Of a stretch of DNA of 64,000 nucleotides, positions 56,813 to 58,782 are shown one piece after another (position 1 is the stretch's first letter; each line of letters begins with the position of its first letter). Below the pieces are notes generated by a model that worked only from the letters and a program-made list of their open reading frames with translations, was not told the DNA's origin and ran no database searches. The position numbers and the translations under genes are program-made. The stretch is from positions 1 through 64,000 of the forward strand of contig JAHEEV010000002.1 in NCBI GenBank assembly GCA_024640505.1, given 5' to 3'. This DNA comes from Halieaceae bacterium. Its GTDB lineage: Bacteria > Pseudomonadota > Gammaproteobacteria > Pseudomonadales > Halieaceae.

Positions 56813-58117
56813 ATGGAAAACCTCTCCAGGCTTTGGAACTCTTCCGGGCTGGCCCAGATGGAGTTGGGCCAGCTCTTTATGATTGTGGTCGGCCTCCTGC
56901 TGTTATTCCTGGCCATCCGCCGGGGCTTCGAACCCCTGTTGCTGGTGCCGATCGGCTTCGGCGGCATCCTGGCGAACATACCGGGTGCGGGTATGGCCTA
57001 CTCGGCCGTGGAAAGTGCGCTCCACAGTGCCGATCCCGCGTTGCTCGCCGAGATGGCCCGGGCCATGGGTGTTGCAGCGACCGATAATGGCAGGGAATTA
57101 CTGGCGGCTTACGGCGCGGCCGATGCCGGGGCGCAAGTGCTGGTGGAACAACTCGCCAGGGATGGCGGCTTTGCCAATGGCATGCTCTACAACTTTTATT
57201 CTGTGGCGATAGCCAGTGGTGTCGCTCCGCTGGTGATTTTCATGGGCGTGGGCGCCATGACCGACTTCGGCCCATTGCTGGCAAATCCGAGGACCCTGTT
57301 CCTGGGTGCGGCGGCACAGTTCGGCATCTTCGCCACGGTGCTCGGTGCGGTTTGGCTGAGTTCTATCGGCCTGATGGACTTCAGCATCGCCGACGCCGCG
57401 GCCATCGGCATCATCGGCGGCGCCGACGGCCCCACGGCAATCTATGTCGCCAGCATCCTGGCCCCTGACCTGCTCGGTGCGATTGCGGTTGCGGCCTATT
57501 CCTACATGGCGCTGGTGCCGATGATCCAGCCGCCCATCATGCGCGCCTTGACCACCCGGGAGGAACGGGCCATCGAGATGGTCCAGCTGCGCCACGTATC
57601 GCGCCGGGAGAAAATCGTGTTCCCCCTGCTGCTGTTGATCCTGGTGGCCCTGCTGTTGCCGGACGCGGCGCCGCTATTGGGCATGTTCTGTTTCGGCAAC
57701 CTGATGAAAGAGTGCGGTGTGGTGGACCGCCTATCCGACACCGCCCAGAATGCCCTGATCAATATCACCACTATTTTTCTCGGCCTGTCCGTGGGATCCA
57801 AGCTGGTGGCTGACAAGTTTCTGGATGTCAGCACACTGGGCATCCTGGGCCTCGGCATCGTCGCCTTCGGCATCGGGACCGCCTCGGGCGTGCTGATCGC
57901 CAAGTTCATGAATCGCCTGGGCAGCACTCCTCTCAACCCGCTGATCGGTTCGGCCGGTGTGTCGGCGGTGCCTATGGCGGCACGGGTCAGCAACAAGGTC
58001 GGCCTGGAGGCCAACCCGCACAATTTTCTGCTCATGCATGCCATGGGCCCCAATGTCGCGGGCGTGATAGGCTCAGCCGTCGCCGCCGGCGTCATGATCA
58101 GCCTCGTGGGTCGCTAG
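56813..58117 (+). CDS. oadB: Oxaloacetate decarboxylase beta subunit (Na+ pump)
   Basis: Integral membrane subunit of 434 residues with about nine helices. The Na+-site block [18 protein letters not shown] is complete, and the region near [20 protein letters not shown] is also typical. It decarboxylates the carboxybiotin of OadA and pumps Na+ outward. The gene lies six bases after oadA. A 194-bp nested inverted repeat follows its stop by 53 bp. Confidence 0.94.
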
Positions 58118-58170
58118 ACGACGCTTTTAATACTTCCCAACCCCTTAAACATGACTTCGGCGTTGAAATA

Positions 58171-58364
58171 GGCCCGGCAGGTGGGAGCGCGGGTATTGTG
58201 CACGGGCGTGAGTTTTCGGGAATTTTCGGCTGCTGCGGAACTCGACCATTTTTCGCGGCGCGAAAAATCGGGACTCGGACAGTCCTCGCAGAAAGCCCCG
58301 AAAATTCCCGAAAACTCAAAGCGCGCCCTATAAGCCCAATCCCCGCGCTCCCACCTGCCGGGCC
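58171..58364. repeat. 194-bp nested inverted repeat between oadB and the thioesterase gene
   Basis: Three concentric arms are visible. The outer perfect arms are 23 bp (58171-58193 with 58342-58364). The middle perfect arms are 21 bp (58209-58229 with 58298-58318; TGAGTTTTCGGGAATTTTCGG and its complement). The core palindrome is ATTTTTCGCG-G-CGCGAAAAAT (58248-58268). A smaller side hairpin GGACT-CGGAC-AGTCC lies at 58271-58285. The element fills most of the gap, so it could be a terminator-like structure, a MITE or a protein-binding or replication-sensitive site. No second copy was noticed in the window. Confidence 0.85.
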
Positions 58365-58374
58365 TGAGCTCACG

Positions 58375-58782
58375 ATGAAACTGGAGAAATACTTGAAAGA
58401 ATTTACGATCACCATCACACCCAGGTTCTACGAAACCGACGCCCTGGGACACATTAACAATATCGCCATCACCGCCTGGTTCGAGGTGTTGCGCGTGCGC
58501 CTGCTGGAATCCCTGGGTTCCGGCGCGGCCAGTGTGGCGAAGAACTGGGTACTGGCGTCTATCGCCATGGATTATATCGACGAGACCTTTTACGGCTCCG
58601 ATGTCACTATGAAGGTTACCGGGTTGGTTGTCGGCAACAGTTCACTGAAAATCCAGTGCCAGATGATGCAGGGTGACCGCCTGACCGTGCGCGGTACCGC
58701 GGTGTTGGTACACCTGGATATCGATACCAAGAAACCCCGGCGAATTCCCGATGAATTGCGGGAGAGCGTCGCGCAACTGTAG
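58375..58782 (+). CDS. Acyl-CoA thioesterase (4HBT/hotdog fold)
   Basis: Hotdog-fold thioesterase of 135 residues. The family opening TPRFYETDALGHINN, with the catalytic Asp and the GH(I/V)NN motif, and the following IAITAWFEVLRVRLLE helix are clear. It hydrolyses acyl-CoA thioesters. The start is the ATG at 58375, just beyond the large inverted repeat; the frame stays open upstream through the repeat (to about 58198) but that part is unlike the family. No clear ribosome-binding site, so a leader translated from the repeat cannot be fully excluded. Confidence 0.85.
   Translation: MKLEKYLKEFTITITPRFYETDALGHINNIAITAWFEVLRVRLLESLGSGAASVAKNWVLASIAMDYIDETFYGSDVTMKVTGLVVGNSSLKIQCQMMQGDRLTVRGTAVLVHLDIDTKKPRRIPDELRESVAQL

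Follow-up and report, generated by a model that had tools for sequence, protein, structure and literature searches.

Long palindromes in natural DNA are generally regarded as unstable. MITEs are short, non-coding, symmetrical sequences that occur in several copies per genome. REP sequences and BIMEs, as described in a published account (PMC3733652), are palindromic repeats of 20-40 bp that carry GTAG/CGTC tags and are linked to RAYT genes, while the attC sites of integrons, as portrayed in another paper (PMC2727003), display bulges on a folded single strand, have a poorly conserved sequence and possess one functional strand. Finally, template switching between the arms of a hairpin restores perfect stems and inverts loops according to two reports (PMC8794818; PMC8604942), the first of which describes several compensatory changes appearing at once in hairpins of RNA genes.

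Repeat searching and folding both confirmed the presence of a large nested inverted repeat at positions 58171-58364 of the window (the whole 64,000-nucleotide stretch of Halieaceae DNA that was analysed). The element measures about 196 bp, and its parts and flanking genes are as follows.

56813..58117, plus strand: oadB, oxaloacetate decarboxylase beta subunit, a flanking gene outside the element (Pfam PF03977, OAD_beta, E 1.7e-153).
58170..58201, unstranded: outer variable arm, 5' side of the plus strand, 32 nt, 94% complementary to 58334-58365; the pairing is kept and the sequence differs in other copies.
58202..58208, unstranded: conserved box, ACGGGCG in the window copy and of the ACGGCCGCAAGC type in other copies (alignment, consensus folds).
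58209..58229, unstranded: middle variable arm, 5' side of the plus strand, 21 nt, 100% complementary to 58298-58318, with two-sided changes across copies.
58228..58299, minus strand: conserved core of 72 bp with internal loops, the stretch that identifies copies (genome search, copy comparison, alignment).
58248..58268, minus strand: apical A+T-rich hairpin (repeat search, loop tally).
58298..58318, unstranded: middle variable arm, 3' side of the plus strand, 21 nt (repeat search).
58319..58333, unstranded: conserved box on the 3' side, with two unpaired bulges (fold, alignment, consensus fold).
58334..58365, unstranded: outer variable arm, 3' side of the plus strand, 32 nt (repeat search).
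58375..58782, plus strand: 4HBT-type thioesterase-like gene, flanking and outside the element (Pfam PF13279, 4HBT_2, E 7.3e-16).

The perfect 23-bp outer arms of the original prediction reappear as uninterrupted pairing of 58171-58193 with 58342-58364 in the RNA fold, and its perfect 21-bp middle arms and 21-bp core palindrome (10-nt inner arms at 58248-58257 and 58259-58268, with 1 nt between them) were recovered as described; the Pfam matches of both neighbours likewise bear out the placement between oadB and a thioesterase gene. The symmetry was rightly said to exceed that of an ordinary terminator. The RNA fold of the plus strand reaches -129.4 kcal/mol (z = -12.5), a value equalled by none of 200 shuffles, and folding as DNA gives -86.8 for the minus strand (z -13.7) and -82.9 for the plus strand (z -12.8). 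The bases called 'non-matching' do lie between the arms, but they are not random, since a repeat family has its conserved core and boxes there. An open frame (58198-58782), probably fortuitous, crosses the element and continues into the thioesterase gene.

A 241-bp query returned 13 matches in the window's own genome (one being its own reverse complement), with further copies in relatives, for a total of 19 of 58 genomes including its own. A covariance model, built from 53 copies, also gave 13 copies in that genome, one of them weak, and, within the family (f1, which named records identify as Halieaceae), placed the element in 43 of 140 genomes and in 18 of 28 genera; across the order it was present in 27 of 390 sampled genomes, distributed over the five families f1, f4, f24, f44 and f47; the window's genome is included in both surveys. 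Copies per genome range from 1 to 31, and since the many-genome searches score few candidates per genome these counts are lower bounds: the one-contig genome G355 yielded 31 copies when searched with one other genome, at a looser threshold, versus 7 in a many-genome search. Sixteen of those 31 copies fall in one 270-kb stretch (contig 1, 1.82-2.09 Mb) of its 3.35-Mb chromosome.

A pattern search of named genomes found 87 stretches; among the matches listed (80) together with 2 viral ones, the model confirmed 38 of 82, mainly from Haliea, Halioglobus, other Halieaceae, Seongchinamella, Mangrovimicrobium and unnamed Gammaproteobacteria, and neither of the two matches in viral contigs. The window's 194 bp matched nothing among plasmids and phages. 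One confirmed copy (L153, 1458-1604) lies in a MAG labelled Bacteroidetes, possibly on a misbinned contig, and at L048 two copies 345 bp apart (706-777 and 1051-1122), identical across the element and its near flanks, read as a tandem duplication. No published Halieaceae palindromic repeat was found in the literature that was searched. Contig ends occur within 500 bp of 18 of the 87 loci, versus 4.1 expected; copy numbers taken from assemblies are therefore too low, and some ends may be wrongly assembled. The excess is what a polymerase-blocking hairpin would give. In genome G066, two contigs (L262 and L263) stop at the gap between glyA and ggt with Nextera-adaptor-like sequence, as if the hairpin had broken the assembly.

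The reading that we favour, and hold to be somewhat probable, is that the element is a copy of a dispersed, non-autonomous family of DNA hairpins of about 200 bp, REP/BIME-like in its working, whose arms are kept matched largely by template switching. It works like a REP or BIME and departs from REPs in three defining respects: its size, the lack of a general tag and the lack of an adjacent RAYT. As with REPs and BIMEs, the copies are dispersed intergenic palindromes, found as singles and as inverted dimers in a favoured arrangement, with folding of a single strand; unlike them, the element is far longer than 20-40 bp, combines a conserved 72-bp core with free arms, carries no general tag and has no adjacent RAYT that could be found. 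Of 118 elements, 15 have a GTAG tag no more than 15 nt from the 5' arm (5.2 in shuffles), an enrichment limited to a subset, and 9 have CGTC (11.0 in shuffles).

These comparisons bear directly on the idea that the hairpins are an outsize REP/BIME-like family moved in trans by a RAYT (HUH, Y1) transposase. Y1_Tnp genes occur in 23 of 43 element-bearing genomes versus 9 of 97 other genomes of the family (p = 4e-8), and in 12 of 14 element-bearing genomes outside it (at a looser threshold, with no element-free control); the inverted groups and convergent sites described below are as in REPs, and the GTAG excess points the same way. However, 103 of the 118 elements are without the tag. Out of 63 Y1_Tnp matches, 48 loci were examined, some of them IS200-like and several ending at a contig end, and the element was present at none; a RAYT-like gene between glyA and ggt in genome G117 sits among GTAG hairpins of another kind. 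Moreover, the integron integrase IntI exceeds its cut-off in 22 of 43 element-bearing and 11 of 97 other family genomes, a skew so like that of Y1_Tnp that both are likely to be confounded by a common factor, for example clade or genome size. Movement by a RAYT is very improbable in our estimation; RAYT was set aside as a linked enzyme because it co-occurs yet is not adjacent in the loci examined, and the integron integrase because its similar co-occurrence is probably confounded. A separate repeat, GGGGACGGAGGCGGTCTACGTCCCC, is found in G355 (loci L276, L277, L283, L284, L285, L287, L289 and L304) by itself, in inverted pairs or bracketing the hairpin element, with four copies in an 8-kb stretch that includes a Y1_Tnp gene; it resembles the GGGGWSAS-type ends reported for TIRYT transposases in PMC3733652.

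Likeness to the other known systems is also partial. The element recalls attC sites, as depicted in PMC2727003, in preserving structure over sequence: it shares with them the bulges on a folded single strand, the poorly conserved sequence and what is probably a single functional strand, but in the loci read its copies lie singly or in pairs among ordinary genes and its arms are far longer. The suggestion of a 'MITE-like' element in the original prediction holds insofar as the repeat is dispersed, short, non-coding, symmetrical and multi-copy; a MITE in the strict sense is not established, no target duplication and no autonomous partner having been found in the loci read, and most copies have the core, not the outer ends, in common. 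Target duplications, whose presence had been put forward as a check, were not evident by eye in five sibling copies, and empty sites were too diverged to align. An autonomous relative was not recognised by eye in wide pairs of copies: an autonomous copy inside those of G115 and G355 was considered and rejected, the intervening genes being, as read by eye, a beta-lactamase-like hydrolase and ordinary genes.

Comparison of the copies separates two kinds of sequence within each element. The 72-bp core and the two boxes are conserved, while the arms differ from locus to locus yet remain complementary. In the 53-copy alignment, 39 of 52 consensus pairs have two-sided changes and one-sided changes are few; one core pair (columns 46/95) alternates between G-C and C-G (31 versus 21 of 53 copies). 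The outer arms, mostly 20-37 bp in the copies scored, hold 3167 Watson-Crick pairs out of 3250 in 117 distinct elements, and the mismatches that remain are asymmetric: read on the plus strand, 51 are A-C, 5 are G-T and 27 are of other kinds (A-C versus G-T, p = 1e-10), with the middle arms behaving alike (A-C 27, G-T 6, p = 3e-4). An A-C mismatch on the plus strand becomes a G-U (or G-T) wobble when the minus strand is read, so it is the minus strand that preserves its pairing; the same use of wobble pairs to pick a strand was applied to the L17 downstream element (PMC2864571). Strand-linked mutation bias of the host should cancel, as the copies lie in both orientations. The asymmetry is weaker outside f1: the two kinds number 1 versus 9 in the outer arms of G115, and 7 versus 11 in 38 further non-f1 elements (p = 0.48).

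Several of these features would be accounted for by a structured RNA with the minus strand as its source, such as a small RNA, a processing element or a decoy, in which the stems covary since the RNA needs them; such an RNA was among the identities first proposed for the repeat, together with a MITE-like element and a cruciform binding site. The asymmetry among mismatches singles out the minus strand as the one where wobble is tolerated, the consensus folds better on that strand (-72.5 versus -68.0), and the core is conserved across families. In contrast, minus-strand wobble makes up just 51 of 3250 outer-arm pairs (1.6%), whereas the controls reach 12.8% (29 terminator hairpins) and 11.7% (119 random 200-mers from the same loci). 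No sigma-70-type promoter signal rises above shuffles on either side of the element. In Rfam 15 the window copy stays below every gathering score (mir-873 at 18.6 bits versus 95), as do 8 further loci (one match to MIR839, 43.6 bits versus 200). Weakened by the very low G-U content, the missing promoter signal and the free orientation described below, the RNA reading is possible but unlikely, and a folded DNA strand is favoured over it.

The apex of the hairpin bears on the same choice. Although the stem varies, the minus-strand terminal loop is GC[GNA]GC in 103 of 113 distinct f1 copies; the apex is a triloop and not a common RNA tetraloop. The GNA triloop is unusually stable in DNA, and its presence favours DNA without proving it. 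The window copy's own loop is GCC, not GNA, while GNA loops occur in 8 of 15 copies in G115 and in 11 of 38 in other genomes, where 7 of the remainder represent a different hairpin picked by the script.

The copies are intergenic. Between convergent genes lie 48 of 76 f1 sites, versus 34 of 182 neighbouring gene pairs (p = 9e-12, with a codon-scored gene caller; the control pairs themselves include element-bearing gaps, genes were called by simple means and some were named by eye). Single copies exhibit no preferred orientation (9 sense and 9 antisense in tandem gaps, 3 and 5 in divergent gaps), a further point against an RNA. A 3'-UTR RNA in sense with the upstream gene was rejected for a related reason: the 100 of 137 'sense' copies reported by a naive caller were traced to convergent gaps, tandem singles being evenly divided. 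Where several copies share a gap, all 34 groups (2 of them from G115) run + ... -, with 28 '+-', 5 '+--' and 1 '++-', some third members being fragments; outside f1, coordinates of close neighbours give 8 of 9 '+-' and one '++'.

The enrichment at convergent gene ends, and the facing orientation of grouped copies, would suit a transcription insulator or two-way terminator maintained at such sites. This role is quite unlikely: tandem and divergent gaps are occupied too, in both orientations, several copies lie beyond what appears by eye to be an intrinsic terminator, the copies are patchy among congeners, and termination needs no conserved 72-bp core.

The way in which copies are distributed among related genomes points instead to spread as DNA. 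At the window's own site none of 4 congeners has an element match; in three of them (L237, L238 and L239) an extra small gene, glycine-zipper-like by eye and absent from the window, lies between oadB and the thioesterase gene. Gaps that are occupied across several genera hold mostly unrelated copies, to judge from their sequences: inner identity is 0.705 in 28 same-orientation comparisons versus 0.689 +/- 0.056 elsewhere, while the mean of the 21 opposite-orientation comparisons, 0.754, exceeds background owing to a flipped set of copies between glyA and ggt. Copies within one genome are 0.734 alike. Such shared gaps suggest repeated arrival at preferred sites followed by vertical descent inside genera. 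Within genera the copies are inherited in place, so that any present-day mobility is putative; G355 offers the clearest case of recent spread. We infer mobility, like the identity of the functional strand, from these patterns.

In the glyA-ggt set, the G035 copy carries in reversed orientation the inner sequence that its relatives have in their ggt-side copy, a pattern that flipping, or exchange among grouped copies, would produce. A G005 copy at a different gap matches the copies that G035, G077 and G084 have between glyA and ggt, with 94.7% identity over its inner part. In one genome of the set the gap is about 50 bp, with little beyond an apparent terminator, and in one the second copy has lost its core. 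In G117 (L260, 400-1520) the same gap is filled by the RAYT-like gene (148 aa) and many GTAG-type hairpins, two unlike repeats at one site.

Closely related copies reveal how the arms change. Five loci in G355 have outer arms in common; two are identical, most of the remaining comparisons show changes at 3-5 positions that affect both arms and none that affect one arm alone, and one copy has 3 one-arm changes. These five copies tell against the idea that outer arms are taken from the target at each insertion, and so arms can travel with the element. The glyA-ggt copies of five genomes show both kinds of change: two-arm differences number 0-8 and one-arm differences 1-3, and of the 6 mismatches still present 5 are A-C. 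These observations fit template switching plus a slower selection on the minus strand; the low wobble could instead reflect unusually strict selection. The hairpins described in PMC8794818 are similar in their perfect stems, in several compensatory changes at once and in loop inversion, and differ in that they belong to RNA genes, whereas here a dispersed repeat family carries much longer perfect stems.

Under the favoured reading of a dispersed DNA hairpin family, copies would spread as DNA into preferred gaps and the folded minus strand would be the functional form, with a putative trans-acting enzyme recognising its core, its bulges and its apical loop. The sequence of the arms would be free provided that they pair, and pairing would be restored mainly by copying one arm onto the other through template switching at the palindrome, with a slower selection acting on top that tolerates G-U on the minus strand. 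A bolder and rather doubtful extension is that the family joins attC and REP as a third class of DNA element that acts, strand-specifically, as a folded single strand, in which a putative enzyme reads the conserved core and a special minus-strand apical loop while the arms form an evolving, self-templating palindrome.

For those who work with such genomes the family is a warning that hairpin sites of this kind break assemblies and escape annotation. It also provides a test case for which strand of a hairpin matters, what spreads palindromes and how palindromes are repaired: more than 100 near-perfect hairpins, with free sequence around one core, allow compensatory change to be measured and template switching to be weighed against two-step selection.
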